DNA of 64,000 nt from Rubrivivax gelatinosus IL144 (GTDB taxonomy: Bacteria > Pseudomonadota > Gammaproteobacteria > Burkholderiales > Burkholderiaceae_C): NCBI RefSeq assembly GCF_000284255.1, contig NC_017075.1:3472001-3536000 (forward strand). Reading direction: 5' to 3'. Under the pieces are notes generated by a model. That model did not search any database. It had not been told where the DNA came from and saw only the letters and a list, made by a program, of their open reading frames with translations. Positions within the stretch are counted from its first letter, which is position 1. Every line of letters begins with the position of its first letter. Shown here piece by piece: positions 32,037 through 42,924 of this stretch. Both the position numbers and the translations under genes were made by a program.

Positions 32037-32710
32037 GCCGTCTTCTCGTAAACGTCGGCGAAGCCCTGCCCGTCCCAGGCGTACAGCAGGTGCGCGGCGT
32101 GCAGGCAGGGCCCGGCACCGCGCGGGCGGAACAGGCCGACGCACTCGCCGCCGGCGTGGCGCACGCTGCGGTAGACGACGCCGTGCGAGCCGGCGGCGCG
32201 CAGCGCGGCGGCCAGCGCGCGCGAGGCGCCGTAGTCGCTGGCGGCGTAGACCGCGTCGTCGACGGCGCCGGGCGGGCGCAGGTCGTGCAGCCGGGCGTCG
32301 ATCGGCACGTGGTACAGCCGCATCGGCAAATGCATCGCCGGCTGGCGCGTCGCGGCGAGGAAACGGGCGTGGTGGTAACGCGTCTCGGCGATCGCGGTCT
32401 CGCGTTCGCGCGCGGCGTAGAACACGCCCCAGCGGCCGTCGGAGAAGCGGCTGCCGTCCGGGTTGACGTGGGTGAAGGCGGCCATCACCGGCCCGCTGCC
32501 CGGACCGAAGACACGCTCGGCGCGCGGCACGCGTTCGACGTGGCCCAGTTCCTCGCGCAGGCGTTCGTTGGTCAGCGCCTCCAGCGCGTACAGCGCGTCG
32601 AAGTCCTCGGCGTCGGCGACGCGGTCGAACAGCGTCACCGACGGATAACGCGTCGGCACGATGCGACAGGCCTGCGTCCAGCGGACGCGGCGGACGTCGG
32701 GTGTGTTCAG
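32033..32710 (-). CDS. RES-domain toxin (MbcT-like, putative NAD-degrading)
   Basis: A 225-residue RES-domain protein, toxin of type II Xre/RES systems; characterised members deplete NAD+. Family segments are QACRIVPTRYPSVTLFDRVAD near the start, SDGRWGVFYAARERETAIAE (about 100) and GVVYRSVRHAGGECVGLF (about 185), which hold the Arg, Glu and Ser of the family name. No ATG, GTG or TTG exists in frame between the antitoxin stop and the conserved domain. The best start is CTG at 32710, overlapping the antitoxin TGA as CTGA. That would be a rare start codon with low, coupled translation. Confidence 0.85.
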   Translation of the reverse strand: MNTPDVRRVRWTQACRIVPTRYPSVTLFDRVADAEDFDALYALEALTNERLREELGHVERVPRAERVFGPGSGPVMAAFTHVNPDGSRFSDGRWGVFYAARERETAIAETRYHHARFLAATRQPAMHLPMRLYHVPIDARLHDLRPPGAVDDAVYAASDYGASRALAAALRAAGSHGVVYRSVRHAGGECVGLFRPRGAGPCLHAAHLLYAWDGQGFADVYEKTA

Positions 32711-33138
32711 GACCAGCCGCCGCCGCGCACGCCGTCGAGGTAGCGGCGCACGAAGTTGAGGTCGCCGACGTTGCCGGCCAGCATGCGCTGCAGCGCGCTG
32801 CGGCCGCCGAAGGCCTCGGCGCTGTTGGGCCGGCGAACCCAGGCGTCGGCCGCGGCCGGCTCGGGCAGCAGGATCTGCAGCGACTTGTAGATGCCGAGCA
32901 GGTTGGACAGCCGCTCCAGCGTGTCGCGCGACAGCCGCGCCTTCTCGGGGTGCTGGCGCCAGGCGAAGAAGGTGGAGCGCGCCGGCTGGCCCAGCAGCAC
33001 GAGCTGCTCGTCGACGCTCAGCCCCCAGGCCTCGGCGATGCGGGCAAACGCCCGCAGGCCGGCCGCGGCCATGCGTTCGTCGGAGACGTCGGCAAAAGCG
33101 GGAGCGGTTTCGGTGGCAACGAGGCGCATGACATCCAA
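32707..33138 (-). CDS. Xre/MbcA/ParS-type antitoxin
   Basis: A 143-residue antitoxin: an N-terminal Xre-like helix-turn-helix (about 30-80, RIAEAWGLSVDEQLVLLGQPA) and the C-terminal MbcA/ParS toxin-binding domain (ERLSNLLGIYKSLQILLPE and SALQRMLAGNVGDLNFVRRYLDGVRGG). It should neutralise the adjacent RES toxin and repress the operon. The start could be ATG 33138 or the ATG three codons later. It leads a three-gene operon with overlapping stops and starts. Confidence 0.9.
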   Translation of the reverse strand: MDVMRLVATETAPAFADVSDERMAAAGLRAFARIAEAWGLSVDEQLVLLGQPARSTFFAWRQHPEKARLSRDTLERLSNLLGIYKSLQILLPEPAAADAWVRRPNSAEAFGGRSALQRMLAGNVGDLNFVRRYLDGVRGGGWS

Positions 33139-33199: not shown

Positions 33200-33649
33200 T
33201 CAGCCGCCGTCGAGCTGCCGGCGCGCGGTCTCGTTGATCAGCCGCAGCTCGGCCAGCGTCGCATCCAGGCCGGCGCGTTTGGCTTCCAGCTCGCGGATCG
33301 CCAGGTCGGTGCGTTCGACGACGTAGGCCAGCTGCTGCGTGCGGCCCTCGCCGTTGTCGCCGTAGAGGTCCAGGTAGTGCTTGATCTCGGCCAGCGAGGC
33401 GCCGATGGCCTTGCTGCGCAGGATCAGCGCCAGCCGCGCGCGGTCGCGCCGGGTGTAGACGCGGGCGCCGTTGACGCGGCGCGGCGCCAGCAGGCCCTTG
33501 TCCTCGTAGAAGCGGATCGTGCGCAGCGTGATGCCGAACTCGCGGCACAGCTCGGTGATGCCGAACAGCTCGCCGGTGTCCGGATCCCGGTGCGACGCCA
33601 CCACCGCCTGGGCGGCGGCGTCATCGGGTCGATCCGGGGTGTCGAGCAT
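33200..33649 (-). CDS. MerR family transcriptional regulator (LiuR-like)
   Basis: A 149-residue MerR regulator. The N-terminal winged helix reads FGITELCREFGITLRTIRFYEDKGLLAPRR (about 28-58), followed by VNGARVYTRRDRARLALILRSKAIGASLAEIK and a C-terminal dimerisation coiled coil (about 100-149). It has no cysteines in the effector region typical of metal sensors. It resembles LiuR-type regulators of branched-chain acyl-CoA catabolism. It lies 9 bases after the SCP2 gene and diverges with it from the acyl-CoA carboxylase operon, making it the obvious regulator of that operon. Confidence 0.88.
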   Translation of the reverse strand: MLDTPDRPDDAAAQAVVASHRDPDTGELFGITELCREFGITLRTIRFYEDKGLLAPRRVNGARVYTRRDRARLALILRSKAIGASLAEIKHYLDLYGDNGEGRTQQLAYVVERTDLAIRELEAKRAGLDATLAELRLINETARRQLDGG

Positions 33650-33658
33650 CGGCGGATG

Positions 33659-33955
33659 CTAGACGATGCGCTGAAGCTTCAGCGCGACGCTCATGTCGCC
33701 GCTGACCTTGATCTTGCCGGTCATGAACGCGGTCGCCGGCTGCAGTTCGCCCTTGATCATCGCGACCAGGTTGTCGTGCGTGATGCCGACGGTGCAGTCG
33801 GTGTCGCGGTCGACGTTGTCGACGGTGTTGGGCACGGCGCGGCCGTCGATGACGACGACGCCGTCGGCGCCGCAGTCGAACTTCAGCGTCGCGTTCAGGC
33901 CGCTGGCCTCGCCGACCTTGCGGCGCAGTTCTTCGGTGCAGGCTTGAAGGTCCAT
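33659..33955 (-). CDS. Stand-alone SCP2 sterol-binding domain protein
   Basis: A 98-residue single SCP2 domain, a fold that binds sterols, fatty acyl-CoAs or similar lipids. Visible family pattern: GLNATLKFDCGADGVVVIDG, DTDCTVGITHDNLVAMIKGELQPATAFMTGKIKVSGDMSVALKLQRI. The start MDLQACTEELRRKVGE at 33955 gives the normal length; an upstream ATG at 34000 is less likely. It heads the leftward transcript with the MerR gene. A lipid or acyl-CoA carrier role for the neighbouring catabolic operon is plausible inference. Confidence 0.88.
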   Translation of the reverse strand: MDLQACTEELRRKVGEASGLNATLKFDCGADGVVVIDGRAVPNTVDNVDRDTDCTVGITHDNLVAMIKGELQPATAFMTGKIKVSGDMSVALKLQRIV

Positions 33956-34041
33956 CGGATCGGGGCTCCTGTGTGCTGCGGCGCATCGTAGCCAGCGCAC
34001 ATGCCGCTGAGATCATGGAAATTACCAACCCGTCACCCTGT

Positions 34042-34055
34042 TGACGTTAACGTCA
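34042..34055. promoter_or_regulatory. Perfect palindromic operator in the divergent promoter
   Basis: TGACGTTAACGTCA is a perfect 14-base palindrome between the SCP2/MerR and carboxylase operons. On the plus strand it overlaps a TTGACG -35 (34041-34046); a CCTAAT -10 candidate (34065-34070) gives an 18-base spacer. An operator inside the -35/-10 spacer is the usual MerR arrangement. The expected start point is about 25 bases before the SDR ATG. Confidence 0.65.
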
Positions 34056-34100: not shown

Positions 34101-34970
34101 ATGAACGAGTCCGGCTACCGCAGCGTGTTCCGTCCCGGCCTGTTCGCCGGGCAGCTGCACTGGGTCACCGGCGGCGGCAGCGGCATCGGCCGCTGCGTCG
34201 CGCACGAGCTGGCGGCGCTGGGCGCGACGGTCGTCATCAGCGGCCGCCAGGCCGACAATCTGGCACGTGTGGCCGCCGAGATCGCCGAGGACGGCGGACG
34301 CTGCGAAACCGTGGTGCTCGACATCCGCGACGAAGACGCGGTGAAGGCCGCCGTCGCCCGCGTCGTCGCCGAACACGGCGCCATCGCCGGCCTCGTCAAC
34401 AACGCCGGCGGCCAGTTCCCGGCGCCGCTGATGGCGATCTCGAAGAAGGGCTTCGATGCCGTCGTCGCCAACAACCTGACCGGCGGCTTCCTGATGATGC
34501 GCGAGGTCTTCCTGCAGAGCATGCAGGACAGCGGCGGCGCCATCGTCAACATGACCGCCGACTTCCGCAACGGCATGCCTGGCATGGGCCACAGCGGCGC
34601 GGCGCGCGCCGGCATGGCCAACCTGACGATGACGGCGGCCTTCGAATGGGCGCACGCCGGCGTGCGCGTCAACGCCGTCGCGCCGGGCTGGATCGCCTCC
34701 AGTGGCCTGGACCGCTACGGCCCGGAGATGAAGCCGATCATCGCCTCGCTCGCCGGCCAGGTGCCGCTGCGCCGGCTGGGTGTCGAGGCCGAAGTGAGCG
34801 CGGCCATCGTCTTCCTGCTGTCGCCGGCGGCGGCCTTCGTCACCGGCGTCACCTTGCCGATCGACGGCGGCGCGCCGCTGGGCAACCAGAGCTTCCCAAT
34901 GGGCCGGACGGCGCGGTCGACTCCGTTCGACGGCTTCCACCGCGCGACGACGCCCGAGGTGCTGCGCTGA
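34101..34970 (+). CDS. SDR family oxidoreductase, PECR-like
   Basis: A 289-residue short-chain dehydrogenase. The cofactor site is TGGGSGIGR (about 23-31), and NNAGGQFPAP follows (about 99). The usual YxxxK catalytic motif is replaced by HSGAARAGMANLT (about 167), the form found in peroxisomal trans-2-enoyl-CoA reductase (PECR) and 2,4-dienoyl-CoA reductase relatives. An enoyl- or dienoyl-CoA reductase role therefore fits better than an alcohol dehydrogenase. It is the first gene of the rightward operon and its stop overlaps the next ATG. atu clusters also carry SDR genes. Confidence 0.88.
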   Translation: MNESGYRSVFRPGLFAGQLHWVTGGGSGIGRCVAHELAALGATVVISGRQADNLARVAAEIAEDGGRCETVVLDIRDEDAVKAAVARVVAEHGAIAGLVNNAGGQFPAPLMAISKKGFDAVVANNLTGGFLMMREVFLQSMQDSGGAIVNMTADFRNGMPGMGHSGAARAGMANLTMTAAFEWAHAGVRVNAVAPGWIASSGLDRYGPEMKPIIASLAGQVPLRRLGVEAEVSAAIVFLLSPAAAFVTGVTLPIDGGAPLGNQSFPMGRTARSTPFDGFHRATTPEVLR

Positions 34971-36580
34971 TGCCCGCGCTGGTCTCGCGGTTGGACCCGC
35001 GTTCGGCGGCTTTCGCCGCCAACGCGGCTCGCATGCACGAGCGCCTGGCCGAGGTGCGCGCGCTCGAAGCCAAGGTCGTCGCCGAATCGGCGAGCAAGGC
35101 CGAGAAGTTCGCCGCGCGCGGCCAGCTGCTGCCGCGGGAACGTGTCGCGCGCCTGCTCGACCGCGGCAGCGACTTCCTCGAGCTCTCGCCGCTGGCCGGC
35201 CTCGGGATGCACGACGACGACGGCCGCAAGAGCGTGCTCGGCGGCGGCTCCATCGTCGGCATCGGCAGCGTCGCCGGGCGGCGCGTGCTGGTCACCGCCA
35301 GCGACAGCGCCGTCAAGGGCGGCACCGTCGCGCCGATGGGGCTGAAGAAGGCGCTGCGGGCGCAGGAGCTGGCGCGCGAGAACAAGCTGCCGCTGGTGGC
35401 GCTGGTCGAGTCGGGTGGCGCCAACCTGATGTACCAGGCGGAGATCTTCGTCGACGGCGGGCGCAGCTTCGCCAACCAGGCGCGGCTGTCTGCTGCCGGC
35501 ATTCCGCAGATCGCCGTCGTGCACGGCTCGTCCACCGCTGGCGGCGCCTACCTGCCGGGGCTGTCGGACTACGTCGTGCTGGTGCGCGGGCGTTCCAGCA
35601 TCTACCTCGCCGGACCGCCGCTGGTGAAGGCCGCGATCGGCGAGGACGCCACCGACGAAGAGCTGGGCGGCGCCGAACTGCACGCCCAGGTCACCGGCCT
35701 GGGCGAGTACCTGGCCGAGGACGACGCGCACGCGATCGAACTCACGCGCGAACTGCTGGCCCGCCTGCCCTGGGACACGGTCTCTGCGCTGCCGCCCGCG
35801 CCCGAGCCGCTGTACCCGGCCGAGGAGCTGATGGGCGTCGTGCCGGCCGACGAACGCACACCCTACGACGTGCGCGAGGTGCTGGCGCGCCTCGTCGACG
35901 GCTCGGAGTTCCTCGAGTTCAAGGCCGGCTACGCGCCCGACACCGTCTGCGGCCACGCGCGGCTGATGGGCCACGACGTCGGCCTCGTCGGCAACAACGG
36001 CCCGATCCAGCCCGCCGGATCGACCAAGGCCGCGCAGTTCATGCAGCTGTGCGACCAGTCGGGCACGCCGCTGGTCTTCCTGCAGAACACCACCGGCTAC
36101 ATGGTCGGCCGCGAGGCCGAACGCGCCGGCGCGATCAAACACGGCAGCAAGATGATCCAGGCGGTGGCCAACGTGCGCGTGCCGAAGTTCACCGTCGTGC
36201 TCGGCGGCAGCTACGGCGCCGGCAACTACGGCATGTGCGGTCGCGGTTTCGACCCGCGTTTCATCTTCGCCTGGCCCAGCGCGCGCACCGCGGTGATGGG
36301 CGGCGCCCAGGCGGCGCAGGTGATGGATTTGCTGAACCGCCAGAAGCTGGAACGTTTGGGCCTGCCGGCCGACGAAGCGGCGCTGGCGGCGATGAGCGAC
36401 GCGCTGCGCCGGCGCCTGGACGCCGAGAGCACGGCGCTGTTCGGCACCGCGCGGCTCTGGGACGACGGCATCGTCGACCCGCGCGACACGCGCCGCGTGC
36501 TGGGCCTGTGCCTGTCGATTGCCGAAGAGGCCGGGCGCCGCCAGCTGCGTCCGAACAGCTACGGCGTCGCCCGCTTCTGA
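34970..36580 (+). CDS. Acyl-CoA carboxylase beta (carboxyltransferase) subunit
   Basis: A 536-residue biotin-dependent carboxyltransferase of the methylcrotonyl/geranyl/propionyl-CoA carboxylase family. Landmarks are RGQLLPRERVARLLD, VESGGANLMYQAEIF (about 145), GSSTAGGAYLPGLSDY (about 185), QNTTGYMVG (about 370) and GSYGAGNYGMCGRGFDPRF (about 410). The segment around 145-165 differs from the LPRQDEVFPD form I associate with methylcrotonyl-CoA carboxylase, so the substrate may be different. It pairs with the biotin carboxylase subunit at 38546. The ATG overlaps the SDR stop. Confidence 0.9.
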   Translation: MPALVSRLDPRSAAFAANAARMHERLAEVRALEAKVVAESASKAEKFAARGQLLPRERVARLLDRGSDFLELSPLAGLGMHDDDGRKSVLGGGSIVGIGSVAGRRVLVTASDSAVKGGTVAPMGLKKALRAQELARENKLPLVALVESGGANLMYQAEIFVDGGRSFANQARLSAAGIPQIAVVHGSSTAGGAYLPGLSDYVVLVRGRSSIYLAGPPLVKAAIGEDATDEELGGAELHAQVTGLGEYLAEDDAHAIELTRELLARLPWDTVSALPPAPEPLYPAEELMGVVPADERTPYDVREVLARLVDGSEFLEFKAGYAPDTVCGHARLMGHDVGLVGNNGPIQPAGSTKAAQFMQLCDQSGTPLVFLQNTTGYMVGREAERAGAIKHGSKMIQAVANVRVPKFTVVLGGSYGAGNYGMCGRGFDPRFIFAWPSARTAVMGGAQAAQVMDLLNRQKLERLGLPADEAALAAMSDALRRRLDAESTALFGTARLWDDGIVDPRDTRRVLGLCLSIAEEAGRRQLRPNSYGVARF

Positions 36581-36606
36581 GCCCACGAGAAACGAGGAGT
36601 CATCCG

Positions 36607-37758
36607 ATGCAGTTCACGCCCGAACACCGCCAGATCGAGGACATCGTCACCCGCTTCGTCGACAAGGAGCTGAACCCGCATGTCGCCGCCTGGGAGGCGG
36701 CCGAGGAGTTCCCCAGCCACGAGGTCTTCAAGAAGCTCGGCGACCTGGGGCTGCTGGGCCTGAAGTACCCGACCGAGTACGGCGGCGCCGGGCTGGACTT
36801 CAGCTACTCGATGGTGATGGCCGAGGCGCTGGGCGCCTGCCACTGCGGCGGCGTGCCGATGGCCATCGGCGTGCACACCGACATGGCGACGCCGGCGCTG
36901 GCGCGTTTCGGCAGCGAGGAGCTCAAGCGCGAATTCCTCGTGCCGACGATCGCCGGCGACTACGTCGCCTGCCTGGGCGTCAGCGAGCCCGGCGGCGGCA
37001 GCGACGTCGCCGCGGTCAAGACGACGGCGCGCACCGAAGGCGGCGACTACGTCGTCAACGGCACGAAGATGTGGATCACCAACGGCCTGAAAGCCGACTG
37101 GTGCTGCCTGCTGGCCAACACCAGCGAAGGCCCGCCGCACCGCAACAAGAGCCTGATCGTCGTGCCGATGGACGCGCCCGGCATCACGCGGCAGAAGATC
37201 CGCAAGATCGGAATGCACGCCAGCGACACCGCGCAGCTCTTCTTCGACAACGTGCGCGTGCCGCGCCGGAACCTGATCGGCCAGGAAGGCATGGGCTTCA
37301 CCTTCCAGATGCTGCAGTTCCAGGAGGAGCGGCTGTGGGGCGCGGCCTCGTCGCTGAAGAGCCTGGACCGGCTGATCGACCTGACGATCGACTACACCCG
37401 CCAGCGCCAGGCTTTCGGCAAGCCCATCCTCGACAACCAGGTCGTGCACTACCGCCTGGCCGAGCTGCGCACCGAGGTCGAGGCGCTGCGCGCGCTGACC
37501 TACCGCGCCGTCGAGCTCTATGTCGCCGGCCAGGACGTCACGCGGCTGGCGAGCATGGCCAAGCTCAAGTGCGGGCGGCTCTCGCGCGAAGTCACCGACA
37601 GCTGCCTGCAGTACTGGGGCGGCATGGGCTACACGCCGGAGAACCCGATCTCGCAGGCCTGGCGCGACTCGCGCCTGGTGTCGATCGGCGGCGGTGCCGA
37701 CGAGGTGATGCTGGGCATCATCTGCAAGCTCGAGAACACGCTGCCGGGGCGTCGATGA
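36607..37758 (+). CDS. Acyl-CoA dehydrogenase (AtuD-like)
   Basis: A 383-residue FAD acyl-CoA dehydrogenase making a 2,3-enoyl-CoA. It carries GVSEPGGGSDVAAVKTTA (about 122), WITNGLKADWCCLLANT (about 155) and FQEERLWGAASSL (about 240). CLQYWGGMGYTPENPISQAWRD (about 335) follows near the C-terminus. LANTSEGPPHRNKSLIVVPM and GVPMAIGVHTDMATPAL recall the citronellyl-CoA dehydrogenase group more than isovaleryl-CoA dehydrogenase, an inference from memory. Its stop overlaps the hydratase ATG (ATGA). Electrons would pass to ETF. Confidence 0.88.
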   Translation: MQFTPEHRQIEDIVTRFVDKELNPHVAAWEAAEEFPSHEVFKKLGDLGLLGLKYPTEYGGAGLDFSYSMVMAEALGACHCGGVPMAIGVHTDMATPALARFGSEELKREFLVPTIAGDYVACLGVSEPGGGSDVAAVKTTARTEGGDYVVNGTKMWITNGLKADWCCLLANTSEGPPHRNKSLIVVPMDAPGITRQKIRKIGMHASDTAQLFFDNVRVPRRNLIGQEGMGFTFQMLQFQEERLWGAASSLKSLDRLIDLTIDYTRQRQAFGKPILDNQVVHYRLAELRTEVEALRALTYRAVELYVAGQDVTRLASMAKLKCGRLSREVTDSCLQYWGGMGYTPENPISQAWRDSRLVSIGGGADEVMLGIICKLENTLPGRR

Positions 37759-38549
37759 GCACGCCGGTCGTCGTCCAGGAGGACACGCGCGGCGTGCTGA
37801 CGCTGACGCTGTCGCGCCCCGAGGTGCGCAACGCGATGTCGCTGGAGATGGTGCTGGCGCTGCGCACCGCGCTGGCCGAGGCCGAAGCCGGCGGCCGCGT
37901 GCGTGTCGTCGTGCTGCGCGGCGCCGGCGGCCACTTCTGCGCCGGCGCCGACATCGCCGACATGGCCGCGGCGCGCGCCCGGCTGGCCGAGGACCCGAAG
38001 GCGATCGAGAAGGTGAGTGCCGCCTTCGGCGAGCTCTGCGCCGCTTTCGCCGCCACGGGGCTGGCCACGGTCGCCTTGCTCGAAGGCAGCGTGATGGGCG
38101 GCGGCCTCGGCCTGGCCTGCGTCGCCGACGTCGCCATCGCCGCCACCAGCGCGGTCTTCCGCCTGCCCGAGACCTCGCTCGGGCTGGTGCCGGCACAGAT
38201 CGCGCCCTTCCTCGTCGAGCGCCTGGGGCCGTCGCAGGCGCGGCGGCTGGTGGTCTGCGGCGGCAAGCTCGACGCGCACGCGGCGCTGGCCGTCGGCCTG
38301 GTGCACGAGCTGCACGCCACCGGCGCGCTGGACCACGCGCTGGAGAAGGTGCTGCTGGACATCCTGCGCTGCGCGCCGGGCGCGGTGGCCGCCAGCAAGG
38401 CGCTGGTCGGCCAGGCGCGCTGGCAGCCCGCGGCAGGGCTGGTGGCGCACGCGGCGGAAGTGTTCTCGCGCGCCGCGCTGGGCCCCGAAGGCGTCGAGGG
38501 CACGACCGCCTTCCTCGAACGCCGCGCGGCGGCCTGGGCGCCCCGATGA
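37755..38549 (+). CDS. Enoyl-CoA hydratase/isomerase family protein
   Basis: A 264-residue crotonase-fold protein, presumably hydrating the carboxylated enoyl-CoA (a glutaconyl-type intermediate). It has the oxyanion-hole segments GGHFCAGADIADM (about 56) and GSVMGGGLGLACVADVAIA (about 112). The catalytic glutamate region is FRLPETSLGLVPAQIAPF (about 137). GLVPAQI is typical of methylglutaconyl/isohexenylglutaconyl-CoA hydratase relatives. ATGA overlaps occur at both ends, so stoichiometric expression with the dehydrogenase and the carboxylase alpha subunit is likely. Confidence 0.9.
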   Translation: MSTPVVVQEDTRGVLTLTLSRPEVRNAMSLEMVLALRTALAEAEAGGRVRVVVLRGAGGHFCAGADIADMAAARARLAEDPKAIEKVSAAFGELCAAFAATGLATVALLEGSVMGGGLGLACVADVAIAATSAVFRLPETSLGLVPAQIAPFLVERLGPSQARRLVVCGGKLDAHAALAVGLVHELHATGALDHALEKVLLDILRCAPGAVAASKALVGQARWQPAAGLVAHAAEVFSRAALGPEGVEGTTAFLERRAAAWAPR

Positions 38550-40447
38550 GCCGGCGCTTCGAAACCGTGCTCGTCGCCAACCGCGGCGAGATCGCCTGCC
38601 GCGTGATGCGCACGGCGCGCCGCCTGGGTTACCGCACGGTGGCCGTCTACAGCGACGCCGACGCGGCGGCGCCGCACGTGCGCCAGGCCGACCTCGCCGT
38701 GCGCCTGGGGCCGGGGCCGGCGTCGGAGTCCTATCTGAACGTCGCCGCGGTGCTGGACGCCGCGGCGCGTGCCGGCGCCGACGCCGTGCACCCCGGCTAC
38801 GGGTTCCTGTCCGAACGCGCCGATTTCGCCGCCGCGGTCGAGGCCGCCGGCTTGGTGTTCATCGGCCCGCCGGCCGAAGCCATCCGCGCGATGGGCGACA
38901 AGGCCGGCGCCAAGCGCCGCATGCTCGCCGCCGGCGTGCCCTGCGCGCCGGGTTACCTGGGCGACGAGCAGGACGAGGGGCGTCTGGCCGCCGAAGCCGA
39001 AGCCCTGGGCGTGCCGCTGCTGGTGAAAGCCGTGGCCGGCGGCGGCGGGCGCGGCATGCGCCTGGTGCGCCGCGCCGACGAGCTGGCCACGGCGCTGGCA
39101 GGCGCACGCCGCGAAGCCGAGAGCGCTTTCGGCGACGGCCGGCTGATGCTGGAACGGCTCATAGCCGGCGCACGCCACGTCGAGGTCCAGGTCTTCGCCG
39201 ACGCGCACGGCCACGCCGTCCACCTGGGTGAACGCGACTGCACGGCGCAGCGGCGGCGGCAGAAGGTCGTCGAAGAGGCGCCGTCGCCGATCGTCGGCCC
39301 CGAGATGCGCGCCACGATGGGCCGCGACGCGGTGGCCGCGGCGCTGGCCGTCGGCTACCGCGGCGCCGGCACCGTCGAGTTCGTCGTCGACGCCGGGGGC
39401 CGGCATTTCTTCCTCGAGATGAACACGCGGCTGCAGGTCGAACATCCGGTCACCGAGGCGATCACCGGGCTGGACCTGGTCGAATGGCAGCTGCGCATCG
39501 CCGCCGGCGAGCCGCTGCCGCTGACGCAGGATCAGATCCGCTTCGACGGCCACGCGGTCGAAGCCCGGCTCTACACCGAAGACCCGTATGCCGGCTGGAC
39601 GCCGCAGACCGGCCGTGTGCTGCACTGGCGGCCCGAAGACGCCGGGCTGCGCGTCGACCACGGCCTGGCCGAAGGCGGCGAAGTGCCGCCGTATTACGAC
39701 GCGATGGTCGCCAAGTTCGTCGCCCACGGCCGCGACCGCACCGACGCCTTGCGCCGGCTGCGCCGCGCGCTGGCCGATGCGCCGCTGTTAGGCTTGCGCA
39801 GCAACGCCGGTTTCCTGCGTGCGCTGCTGGCGCACCCGGACTTCGTCGCCGCGCGTTTGACGACGACACGCCTGGACGAATGGGCCGAACACGGCGAGCC
39901 GCTGCTGCAGCGCCCTTGCCCGCCCGAGGCCGCGTGGGCGCTGGCCGCAGCGCTGCTCGCCACCGGCGCCGGCTGGCGGCCCGCCGGCCTGGCCACCAGC
40001 GAACTGACGCTGGCCCACGACGGCGAGCGCCGCACGCTGCGCGCGCCGCCGCCTGGCCTTCAGGTGCTCGAATGGGCCGCCGACGGCCGCGTGCGCTGGC
40101 AAGCCGACGGCCTGCAGCGCCACGCGCTGGCACGCCGCGACGGCGCCACGCTGCACCTGGCGCTGGACGGCGAGGTCTTCGTCTTCAGCGAGCCCATGGC
40201 CGGCGCACGCGACGTGGCCGAAGACGCCTCGCGCGCCTGCGCGCCGGTGGCCGGCGTCGTCGCCCAGGTGCTGGTGGCGCCGGGCGATCGGGTCGAAACC
40301 GGCCAGCGCCTGGCCTGCGTCGAGGCGATGAAGATGGAGATGTGGCTGCAAGCCGGCGCCGCCGGCGTCGTGCGCGCGGTGCACGCCGCTGCCAAGGACC
40401 CGGTGGCCGCCGGGGCGCTGCTGGTCGAACTGGAGCTGGATTCATGA
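38546..40447 (+). CDS. Acyl-CoA carboxylase alpha subunit (biotin carboxylase-BCCP)
   Basis: A 633-residue fusion of biotin carboxylase, a linker (BT) domain and a biotinyl carrier domain. N-terminal ANRGEIACRVMRTARRLG, ATP-grasp KAVAGGGGRGMRLV (about 160), EVQVFADAHGHAVHLGERDC (about 215) and EMNTRLQVEHPVTEAITG (about 292) are all present. The biotin lysine is Lys596 in CVEAMKMEM. With the beta subunit it forms a two-subunit carboxylase of the methylcrotonyl/geranyl-CoA type. Overlaps of ATGA join it to the hydratase and to the BKACE gene. Confidence 0.93.
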   Translation: MSRRFETVLVANRGEIACRVMRTARRLGYRTVAVYSDADAAAPHVRQADLAVRLGPGPASESYLNVAAVLDAAARAGADAVHPGYGFLSERADFAAAVEAAGLVFIGPPAEAIRAMGDKAGAKRRMLAAGVPCAPGYLGDEQDEGRLAAEAEALGVPLLVKAVAGGGGRGMRLVRRADELATALAGARREAESAFGDGRLMLERLIAGARHVEVQVFADAHGHAVHLGERDCTAQRRRQKVVEEAPSPIVGPEMRATMGRDAVAAALAVGYRGAGTVEFVVDAGGRHFFLEMNTRLQVEHPVTEAITGLDLVEWQLRIAAGEPLPLTQDQIRFDGHAVEARLYTEDPYAGWTPQTGRVLHWRPEDAGLRVDHGLAEGGEVPPYYDAMVAKFVAHGRDRTDALRRLRRALADAPLLGLRSNAGFLRALLAHPDFVAARLTTTRLDEWAEHGEPLLQRPCPPEAAWALAAALLATGAGWRPAGLATSELTLAHDGERRTLRAPPPGLQVLEWAADGRVRWQADGLQRHALARRDGATLHLALDGEVFVFSEPMAGARDVAEDASRACAPVAGVVAQVLVAPGDRVETGQRLACVEAMKMEMWLQAGAAGVVRAVHAAAKDPVAAGALLVELELDS

Positions 40448-41313
40448 GCCTGGAACCCGCGATCCTGACCTGCGCGCTGACCGGCGTGCTGACCAACCCC
40501 GACCAGCACCCGGTGCCGGTGACACCCGAGCAGATGGCGCGCGAGGCGCGCGCCGCCTTCGACGCCGGCGCCAGCGTGATGCACGTGCACCTGCGCGACC
40601 AGACGCCGGGCCGCGGTTTCATGCCGACGTGGGACCCGGAGGTCGCCGCCGCCGTCTGCGACGCGATCCGCGAGGCCTGCCCCGGCGTCATCCTCAACCT
40701 GACGACCGGCGTGCTCGGCCCCGACATAGCAGGCCCGGAGGCCTGCATCCGCCGCGTGCGCCCCGAGATCGCCGCCTGCAACGCCGGCAGCCTGAACTAC
40801 CTGAAGCTGCGCGAGGACGGCCGCTGGGCCTGGCCGCCGATGGTCTTCGACAACCCGGTCGACAAGATCGAGCGTTTCGTCGCCGTGATGCGCGAATGCG
40901 GCACGCATCCGGAGTTCGAGTGTTTCGACGTCGGCATCGTGCGCAGCGTCGGCCTGTTCGCCAAGGCCGGCCTGGTCGACGGCACGCCCGAGCTGAACTT
41001 CGTGATGGGCGTGGCCAGCGGCATGCCTTGCGACGCCGCGCTGCTGGCGCTGCTGCCGGGTTACGCGCCGCCGGGCGCGGTGTGGCAGGCGACGCTGATC
41101 GGCCGCGCCGAGATCTGGCCGGTGCACCAGCGCGCCGCCGAGCTGGGCGGCATGCTGCGCACCGGGCTCGAAGACACCTTCTACCTGCCCGACGGCCGGC
41201 GCGCACGCGGCAACGGCGAGCTGATCGAGGCGCTGGCCGACTGCGCACGGCGCGCCGGGCGCGCCATCGCGACGCCGGCGCAGGCCCGCGCCCGGCTGGG
41301 GCTGGCGCCGTGA
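40444..41313 (+). CDS. Beta-keto acid cleavage enzyme (BKACE) family protein
   Basis: A 289-residue TIM-barrel zinc enzyme of the 3-keto-5-aminohexanoate cleavage family (formerly DUF849). Family members condense a free beta-keto acid with acetyl-CoA to give acetoacetate and a new acyl-CoA. The zinc motif MHVHLRD (His47, His49) and RTGLEDTFYLPDG (Glu243 region) are visible, as is NLTTGVLGPD. The keto-acid pocket cannot be read by eye, so the substrate is open. It is unusual in a branched acyl-CoA cluster, where an HMG-CoA lyase would be expected. It is fully overlapped into the operon. Confidence 0.88.
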   Translation: MSLEPAILTCALTGVLTNPDQHPVPVTPEQMAREARAAFDAGASVMHVHLRDQTPGRGFMPTWDPEVAAAVCDAIREACPGVILNLTTGVLGPDIAGPEACIRRVRPEIAACNAGSLNYLKLREDGRWAWPPMVFDNPVDKIERFVAVMRECGTHPEFECFDVGIVRSVGLFAKAGLVDGTPELNFVMGVASGMPCDAALLALLPGYAPPGAVWQATLIGRAEIWPVHQRAAELGGMLRTGLEDTFYLPDGRRARGNGELIEALADCARRAGRAIATPAQARARLGLAP

Positions 41314-41795
41314 CGACGCCCGCAGCACGCCGCAGCGCCGCCGAGCAGCAGCGGCTGGAAGCGGCCTTCACCGAGATGTTCGAGCAGCAGATCGTCTTCA
41401 ACCGCGTGCTCGGGCTGAAGGTCGAGTCGCTGGCGCCCGGCGACGTGCGCCTGTCCTTCGAGATGCGGCCCGAGCTGATCGGCCACTTCCTGCACCAGCG
41501 CCTGCACGGCGGCGCGATCTCGGCGACGCTGGACGCCACCGGCGCGCTGGCGCTGATGGTCGCGATCGCCGAACGCCACCCGGCCGACGACGCCCAGCAG
41601 GTGCTGCAGCGTTTCGCGCGCATGGGCACGATCGACCTGCGCACCGACTTCCTGCGCCCCGGGCTGGCGCCGCGCTACGTCGCGCAGGCCGAGGTCACGC
41701 GCCTGGGCGGGCGTGTCGGCTCGACGCAGATGCGGCTGATCGACGACAGCGGCCAGCTGATCGCCACGGGTTCGGGCTCGTACATCGTCAGCTGA
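41310..41795 (+). CDS. Hotdog-fold acyl-CoA thioesterase (PaaI/YiiD-C type)
   Basis: A 161-residue hotdog protein probably hydrolysing an acyl-CoA. The central helix segment is HQRLHGGAISATLDATGALAL (about 60-80), followed by TIDLRTDFLRPG and YVAQAEVTRLGGRVGSTQM. The GTG start at 41310 overlaps the BKACE stop as GTGA. Release of a free beta-keto acid by this enzyme would supply the BKACE next to it. That pairing is inference from gene order. Confidence 0.85.
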   Translation: MTTPAARRSAAEQQRLEAAFTEMFEQQIVFNRVLGLKVESLAPGDVRLSFEMRPELIGHFLHQRLHGGAISATLDATGALALMVAIAERHPADDAQQVLQRFARMGTIDLRTDFLRPGLAPRYVAQAEVTRLGGRVGSTQMRLIDDSGQLIATGSGSYIVS

Positions 41796-41847: not shown

Positions 41848-42924
41848 ATGAGACACACGCCGATCGCCCTCGCCTTCCTCCTCACCAGCCTGGCGCTGCC
41901 GCTGCAGGCGCGCACCGAAGCCGGCCCGCGGCCGATCACGCCGCGCGGCGCGCTGTCGGCCGAGGAGACGGCCAACATCGAACTCTTCCGCAAGGCCTCG
42001 CCGTCGGTCGTGCACATCACGACGCTGGCCGCGCGGCGCGACTTCTTCTCGCTCAACGTGCAGCAGGTGCCGGCCGGCACCGGCACCGGCTTCGTCTGGG
42101 ACGAGGCCGGCCACATCGTCACCAACTTCCACGTCATCCAGGGCGGCAGCGGCGCGCAGGTGACGCTGGCCGACCAGACCAGCTACGAAGCCGAACTGGT
42201 CGGCGCCTTCCCCGACCGCGACCTCGCGGTGCTGCGCATCAAGGCGCCGCGCGAAAAGCTGCCGCCGATCGCCATCGGCGCCAGCCGCGAGCTGCGGGTC
42301 GGCCAGCGCGTCTACGCGATCGGCAACCCCTTCGGGCTGGACCAGACGCTGACCACCGGCATCGTCAGCGCGCTGGGCCGCGAGATCGAGTCCTTCAACA
42401 ACCGCACGATCCGCGGCGTGATCCAGACCGACGCGGCGATCAACCCCGGCAACTCCGGCGGCCCGCTGCTCGACAGCGCCGGCCGGCTGATCGGCGTGAA
42501 CACGCAGATCGCCAGCCCCAGCGGCGCCAGCGCCGGCATCGGCTTCGCGATCCCGGTCGACGAGGTCAACCGCATCGTGCCGCGGCTGATCCGCGACGGG
42601 CGTTTCCTGCGCCCGGCGATCGGCGTCACCGCGGGGCCCGAGAACCTCACGCGGGCCCTGGGCCTGCCACGCGGCGTGCCGCTGGTGCAGGTGCAGCCGG
42701 GCGGCCCGGCGGCCAAGGCGGGCCTCAAACCCTTCCAGCGCGGGCGCGGCTCGCAGATCGTCGCCGGCGACGTCATCACCGCGGTGGCTGGCGAGGCGGT
42801 CGACAGCCTGGACGACATCCTGTCGCTGCTGGAAACACGCCAGCCCGGCGACCGCGTGAACCTGACCGTCTGGCGCTCCGGCCAATCGCGCAGCGTGACG
42901 GTGACGCTGGGCAGCGCCGAATAG
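41848..42924 (+). CDS. Periplasmic trypsin-like protease of the HtrA family
   Basis: A 358-residue S1C serine protease with one PDZ domain. A signal peptide (about 1-22, LQA cleavage) is followed by the protease domain with catalytic His95 (TNFHVI), Asp125 (PDRDLAVLR) and Ser203 (NPGNSGGPLL). The PDZ domain spans about 250-350. One PDZ and the length are closest to DegS, but the N-terminus looks cleavable, so it may be a soluble relative. A hairpin lies before it (41819-41840). It is convergent with the proline-rich gene, one base apart. Confidence 0.9.
   Translation: MRHTPIALAFLLTSLALPLQARTEAGPRPITPRGALSAEETANIELFRKASPSVVHITTLAARRDFFSLNVQQVPAGTGTGFVWDEAGHIVTNFHVIQGGSGAQVTLADQTSYEAELVGAFPDRDLAVLRIKAPREKLPPIAIGASRELRVGQRVYAIGNPFGLDQTLTTGIVSALGREIESFNNRTIRGVIQTDAAINPGNSGGPLLDSAGRLIGVNTQIASPSGASAGIGFAIPVDEVNRIVPRLIRDGRFLRPAIGVTAGPENLTRALGLPRGVPLVQVQPGGPAAKAGLKPFQRGRGSQIVAGDVITAVAGEAVDSLDDILSLLETRQPGDRVNLTVWRSGQSRSVTVTLGSAE

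Follow-up and report, generated by a model that had tools for sequence, protein, structure and literature searches.

An atu-type operon of Rubrivivax gelatinosus IL144 that encodes a beta-keto acid cleavage enzyme and lacks atuA

The closest described relative of the locus considered here is the atuABCDEFGH cluster of Pseudomonas, whose regulator AtuR belongs to the TetR family. In the portions of the literature available, AtuR is described as the repressor of this cluster (PMC9973270), and the cleavage step of acyclic terpene degradation is assigned to AtuA or to LiuE (PMC4847356, PMC4097962, PMC9973270). The beta-keto acid cleavage enzymes (BKACE, DUF849) are described, in the accessible text of two papers, as converting a free beta-keto acid and acetyl-CoA to acetoacetate and a shortened acyl-CoA (PMC6365646, PMC4922564). 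No paper linking a BKACE to a terpene or geranyl-CoA context was among the matches listed from the open-access literature searched, outside which most subscription journals lie, and a search for Rubrivivax with citronellol or geraniol gave no paper on the organism among the matches listed. The operon described here lies at positions 34101-41795 of a 64,000-nucleotide stretch of the Rubrivivax gelatinosus IL144 genome (contig NC_017075.1, positions 3,472,001 to 3,536,000; hereafter the window, to which coordinates refer unless otherwise given), the genome being 5.04 Mb in one contig.

The seven plus-strand genes of the operon are predicted to encode an AtuB-type short-chain dehydrogenase/reductase (SDR; 34101-34970), a carboxyltransferase beta subunit of the geranyl-CoA carboxylase (GCC) type (AtuC; 34970-36580), an acyl-CoA dehydrogenase in the AtuD position (36607-37758), an enoyl-CoA hydratase in the AtuE position (37755-38549; Pfam ECH_1), an alpha subunit combining biotin carboxylase and biotin carboxyl carrier protein, with the biotinylation motif EAMKM in its translation (AtuF; 38546-40447), a BKACE of a distinct subfamily (40444-41313; PF05853, 287.7 bits), and a hotdog thioesterase of the PRK11688 (YigI) family (41310-41795; NF008675, 181.1 bits against a cut-off of 107). 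All seven stand at the place and on the strand given in a preliminary description of this DNA, and Pfam assigns a family to every one, in support of the families named there. The tight packing reported there is also evident, with overlaps of 1, 4, 4, 4, and 4 bases and a gap of 26 bases between the beta subunit and dehydrogenase genes; however, the count of six overlapping boundaries out of seven has to be corrected to five out of six, since seven genes have six internal boundaries. The SDR had been called PECR-like, but it scores only 198 bits against PECR and 371 bits against its best PDB match, 6lln ("putative dehydrogenase involved in catabolism of citronellol").

Comparison with complete atu clusters places these genes in a familiar frame. 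Four such clusters (L138-L141) read AtuA, SDR, beta subunit, acyl-CoA dehydrogenase, enoyl-CoA hydratase, biotin carboxylase, SDR, AtuH, and the window holds the middle five in order, followed by the BKACE and the thioesterase. The window SDR shares 60-64% identity with the SDR that stands between AtuA and AtuC in these clusters, and the dehydrogenase is 65-66% identical to the one in the same position; the second NCBIfam match of the hydratase is gamma-carboxygeranoyl-CoA hydratase, at 155.5 bits under a cut-off of 426. The beta subunits of three of the four clusters group closely with PDB entry 5ikl (GCC beta), and on this grouping L139-L141 appear to be Pseudomonas-like. The window shares with the Pseudomonas cluster the atuB-C-D-E-F homologues in order and the GCC-type beta subunit, whereas it lacks adjoining atuA, atuG, and atuH and adds the BKACE, the thioesterase, and upstream genes for a MerR-family regulator and an SCP2 protein. 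Judged by gene content and order, the operon is a real and conserved atu-type variant, atuBCDEF plus BKACE and thioesterase.

The type of the carboxylase is indicated by three kinds of evidence. Among solved structures, the beta subunit scores 731 bits against 5ikl and 540 bits against the beta subunit of methylcrotonyl-CoA carboxylase (MCC; 3u9r). In GCC, according to the accessible part of the source, Gly162 stands where MCC has a pocket Phe, and MCC carries a three-residue insertion at this place (PMC4673880). The corresponding stretch of the window subunit, SGGANLMYQAEIFVDGGRSFANQ, has the Gly162-type residue and is without the insertion and pocket Phe that characterize LiuB, while LiuB from the same genome is of the MCC form. 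In a quick tree, to which 11 of 80 named BKACE loci were added and for which two MCC rows served as outgroup, the window subunit lies on the GCC side and is split from the MCC rows at a Shimodaira-Hasegawa-like approximate likelihood ratio (SH-aLRT) of 100. A beta phylogeny had been proposed in the preliminary description, along with the hint that the enzyme differs from MCC; the tree, run against the MCC rows and 5ikl, agrees with the bit scores and the pocket signature in placing the subunit outside MCC, so that it is not a LiuB. The motif VESGGANLMYQAEIF, from which a new substrate had been read, is present but not novel, as 5ikl carries ESGGANLNYAAEIF, and both motif and pocket signature are those of GCC. 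On these sequence features, the beta subunit is of the GCC type, with a predicted activity on cis-geranyl-CoA. A second large group of beta subunits (L030-L038 and many of L157-L187), SAGANL-type rather than SGGANL-type, likewise has AtuA or BKACE as a partner, and BKACE occurs with both the GCC and the SAGANL kind.

The distribution of AtuA and BKACE was surveyed in 71 genomes with a beta match of at least 564 bits or, for G019 and G629, of 555 and 552 bits; further cases may lie among the other matches below 564 bits, which were outside the set and for the most part stop close to residue 520, like LiuB. Scores of at least 414 bits for AtuA and 402 bits for BKACE were required, and lower-scoring AtuA relatives were counted as paralogues (e.g., G111 with 243 bits, G122 with 387 and 76 bits). 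An AtuA orthologue is present in 45 genomes, BKACE in 16, both in none, and neither in 10 (Fisher p = 1.7e-9, assuming independent genomes, which they are not). At the level of the locus, 73 GCC-type loci other than the window, taken with up to about 9 kb per side (under 6 kb to one side of the beta gene in 17 of them), have AtuA nearby in 34 cases, BKACE in 14, both in none, and neither in 25. The BKACE label changes six times on the beta tree, with at least five changes forced by well-supported branches. Across five independent pairs differing in BKACE, AtuA differs in the opposite direction in 4.6, shows no difference in 0.4, and differs in the same direction in 0 (means of 200 pairings). 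AtuA and this BKACE exclude each other in the sampled genomes, a new observation. No atuA was found in any of 91 BKACE loci of about 3.4-20.9 kb, and the nearest AtuA in the window's genome is a 37%-identical relative (269 bits; G000:C1:146054-147361) counted as a paralogue. Because BKACE is present where AtuA is absent, it is a genuine and informative part of the operon, and the absence of AtuA together with the presence of an unrelated BKACE suggests an alternative means of cleaving the same intermediate.

The association of BKACE with the carboxylase is also conserved. In the best 80 named loci for this BKACE (more matched; denominators are loci with enough flank), its partners include the alpha subunit (64/66), the beta subunit (55/56), the dehydrogenase (54/56), and the hydratase (53/56), with MerR (54/56) and SCP2 (53/56) genes upstream, while the SDR is optional (28/56). 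This arrangement is not due to chance, and the linkage recurs across the phylum, in five of its family codes (f1, f9, f31, f41, and f48), which upholds the earlier view of BKACE as an operon member. Among sampled Pseudomonadota, the subfamily occurs in 12 of 299 genomes, the window's included, and all 12 also have a GCC-type carboxylase, which is itself found in 43 of 398 genomes at the 564-bit cut-off. Twelve BKACE loci from other classes have a different gene order, with a glutathione S-transferase (GST) gene in 11 and a CoA-ligase-like gene in 10 somewhere in the locus. GST-bearing BKACE-carboxylase clusters are seen in L030-L035, L037, L038, L161, L163, and L164, and in L036 a mycothiol-maleylpyruvate-isomerase-type domain lies between the beta subunit and the BKACE. 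GST and mycothiol-maleylpyruvate-isomerase types are thiol-dependent isomerase families in other pathways. Such proteins might supply the trans-to-cis isomerisation of geranyl-CoA, a step mentioned in the accessible part of one source (PMC8637051).

The window BKACE shares 95-98% identity with named proteins of Rubrivivax gelatinosus and 98% with one of Rubrivivax sp. JA1026, and the 120 best relatives among the matches listed are all at least 77% identical. Its identity is 62-95% to the BKACE of the 91 loci and at most 38% to other BKACEs in the 71 genomes, and it falls under the cut-off of all four NCBIfam models matched (e.g., 180 bits against 382 for Kce). It shares PF05853 and the Zn/catalytic positions with 3-keto-5-aminohexanoate cleavage enzyme (Kce, PDB 2y7d), keeping the Kce-numbered His46, His48, Glu143, Arg226, Glu230, and Asp231, but it belongs to a separate subfamily in which Leu replaces Glu14 (23/23 subfamily rows). 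Given the roles presumed here for these positions, Glu14 included, the Leu would suit a substrate with an uncharged side chain. The BKACE of deoxyribonate catabolism, in the available part of its description, likewise takes a free beta-keto acid from an upstream pathway enzyme, although the acid there comes from SDR oxidation and not from the carboxylase-hydratase-lyase route proposed below (PMC6365646). The same genome has a second BKACE, with about 30% identity to the first, in L136 (G000:C1:132000-151900). Some 7 kb separate it from a short AtuA relative that adjoins a citrate-type transporter; here the two families again come together, in another context.

According to the preliminary description, the BKACE and thioesterase stand in place of a lyase of the 3-hydroxy-3-methylglutaryl-CoA (HMG-CoA) type. 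A search for a second leucine (liu) cluster and for HMG-CoA lyase, also proposed there, found both: a separate cluster elsewhere in the genome has LiuB, a hydratase, a biotin carboxylase, and HMG-CoA lyase (NF004283, 449 bits against a cut-off of 246), although its isovaleryl-CoA dehydrogenase was not located. This cluster shares with the window operon the dehydrogenase-carboxylase-hydratase logic, while in the window operon the carboxylase has the alternative pocket form, HMG-CoA lyase is lacking, and the BKACE is present in addition. Because the lyase is encoded there, the BKACE was rejected as its replacement; what is missing instead is AtuA. A lyase elsewhere in the genome that completes this pathway, with no role for the BKACE, had been named as a finding that would count against the original scheme; in part this is what was found, as the lyase exists and may complete the pathway. 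The survey for HMG-CoA lyase covered 48 of the 71 genomes, including all 16 with BKACE. A LiuE-level lyase (more than 300 bits) is present in 14 of the 16 and in 15 of the 22 AtuA genomes surveyed; among the remaining seven, four have only distant lyase relatives and G078, G403, and G320 have no match. This distribution agrees with AtuA not needing LiuE, in small numbers. A palindromic putative operator, TTGACGTTAACGTCA (34041-34055), was read directly between the SCP2 gene and the operon and is presumably LiuR-like. Of 57 homologous intergenic regions, 52 contain a palindrome with a ACGTNNACGT core, and two overlapping copies of a palindrome with this core stand where liuB begins in the same genome, which makes shared regulation with the lyase plausible.

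The best explanation of the operon, held with a confidence slightly above even, is that it serves geranyl- or citronellyl-type beta-methyl-branched acyl-CoAs and that a LiuE-type cut followed by BKACE replaces AtuA. We infer the substrate, the reactions, and their order as follows. The dehydrogenase would give a 3-methyl-2-enoyl-CoA, the carboxylase would add CO2 to the beta-methyl group, and the hydratase would form a 3-hydroxy-3-alkylglutaryl-CoA. In ordinary atu operons, a citramalate-lyase-type AtuA would split off acetate, with the CoA staying on the long chain, an unusual product split for the cleavage step. Here, an HMG-CoA-lyase-type enzyme (LiuE, from the liu cluster) would instead cut off the CoA-bearing arm, and from the known HMG-CoA reaction its products would be acetyl-CoA and free 7-methyl-3-oxo-6-octenoate. 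BKACE fits this route because a free beta-keto acid is its substrate class; it would combine the acid with that same acetyl-CoA to give acetoacetate and an acyl-CoA two carbons shorter, with no ATP spent. The net result would be acetoacetate and 5-methyl-4-hexenoyl-CoA from the hydroxy-alkylglutaryl-CoA, with the acetyl-CoA regenerated. A broader formulation, in which one 3-hydroxy-3-alkylglutaryl-CoA undergoes two regiochemically opposite cuts (by AtuA, or by lyase and BKACE) and the modules have been swapped repeatedly, is offered tentatively, its chances falling a little short of even. The role of AtuA is suggested by its predicted fold (L124, L128, and L130), which matches subunit A of citramalate lyase, an acetate-releasing enzyme. 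The relationship to CmlA is distant (PDB 9erq/9evf, 15% identity), and AtuA has an extra C-terminal ferredoxin-like domain (PF23544); subunit B (9evf_B) gives a weak match to the AtuA model (E 0.02), and AtuA is possibly a fusion of both subunits. This comparison concerns a protein that is absent from the window operon. The exclusion and the AtuA fold give each protein a specific, testable role, and a substrate class is hereby proposed for a BKACE subfamily encountered often in sequence data.

Several observations weigh against lyase followed by BKACE as the substitute for AtuA. Ten of the 71 carboxylase genomes have neither protein, and G122 has a BKACE unlinked to its carboxylase cluster as well as the split AtuA relative (44% identity), which belongs to a different cluster, together with genes for aldehyde dehydrogenase, SDR, and hydratase; if this relative is counted, co-occurrence rises to 1/71. 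The sign test on the independent pairs has a best p of 0.0625 and cannot reach 0.05, and treating G122 as having both gives 4.1 opposite pairs and a median p of 0.125. None of the 56 named loci that extend 7 kb or more upstream contains an HMG-CoA lyase gene, the presence of which would have been direct support. In the accessible parts of published schemes, the lyase products are a CoA thioester and acetate, and one scheme assigns this reaction to LiuE (PMC4097962, PMC4847356). Lastly, no HMG-CoA lyase was found in G004 or G059 (one genus), even though the BKACE cluster is present; each has only two HMGL-like proteins, in frames of 543-585 aa, which were rejected as candidates because they are not of HMG-CoA lyase length, and the lyase step must therefore differ there. 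In these genomes, either the cleavage falls to a different enzyme, perhaps a hydratase-lyase, or BKACE acts otherwise. No LiuB-type match past 1e-155 was found in either genome among three candidates scored in each. Their loci (L038 in G004, L037 in G059) are BKACE-carboxylase-CoA ligase clusters.

The same two genomes bear on the alternatives. A BKACE that belongs to the operon but has another catalysis, for instance doing the job of AtuA directly on the hydroxy-alkylglutaryl-CoA, would account for G004 and G059 and would make the two proteins one-for-one replacements; the accessible part of the DUF849 classification, moreover, lists some groups without BKACE activity (PMC4922564), a further point against the lyase-BKACE route. 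However, the canonical BKACE catalytic positions checked are kept and the lyase is present in 14 of the 16 BKACE genomes, and this alternative is considered unlikely. A lyase-free route would also suit G004 and G059 under the scheme of the preliminary description, in which the thioesterase hydrolyzes a CoA ester to a free beta-keto acid that BKACE then cleaves, yet no thioesterase is seen in their loci. Although the two genes overlap by 4 bases in the window, a thioesterase gene comes after BKACE in no more than 21 of the 69 named loci whose sequence extends far enough, is absent from all 12 BKACE loci of other classes, and occurs without BKACE in three clusters (L133, L165, and L173), so that the pairing is not conserved and the feeder role was rejected. 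The chemistry is also unfavorable, since a thiolase would split the CoA ester directly and since carboxylation and hydration yield no beta-keto acyl-CoA without a C-C cut, and the scheme is regarded as very improbable. YigI removes dead-end acyl-CoAs, and the patchy presence of the thioesterase suggests that it serves as a relief valve and is not a step of the pathway.

A stronger competitor keeps the chemistry and changes the substrate to longer isoprenoid acids or other beta-methyl-branched fatty acids. This is a serious possibility, if not the favored one: BKACE pairs with SAGANL-type carboxylases too, and a Pseudomonas cluster with high similarity to atu responds to the branched diffusible signal factor (DSF) and has a role in its degradation, as given in the available part of the report (PMC9973270), whereas the GCC-type beta subunit and AtuB-type SDR of the window favor monoterpenoids. 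A leucine or isovalerate operon (LiuB/LiuD) that has lost its lyase would be in keeping with the shared enzyme logic and the similar palindrome upstream of liuB, but such an identity is scarcely credible, being largely refuted by the scores against 5ikl and 3u9r, the pocket form without the MCC insertion, the separation from the two MCC rows on the tree, and the separate liu cluster.

The divergent genes upstream of the operon were, like the palindrome, unmentioned in the preliminary description. They encode the SCP2 sterol-carrier-type protein (33659-34000, minus strand; Pfam SCP2, 55.9 bits), for which an internal ATG near 33955 may be the true start, and the MerR-family regulator (33200-33649, minus strand; Pfam MerR_1, 61 bits). 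The MerR gene is adjoined by a gene for an antitoxin-like protein with an Xre-like helix-turn-helix and an Xre/MbcA/ParS C-terminal domain (32707-33138, minus strand). On the other side of the operon, a trypsin/PDZ protease gene (41848-42924, plus strand) begins on the same strand 53 bases past the thioesterase gene and is probably unrelated to the operon.

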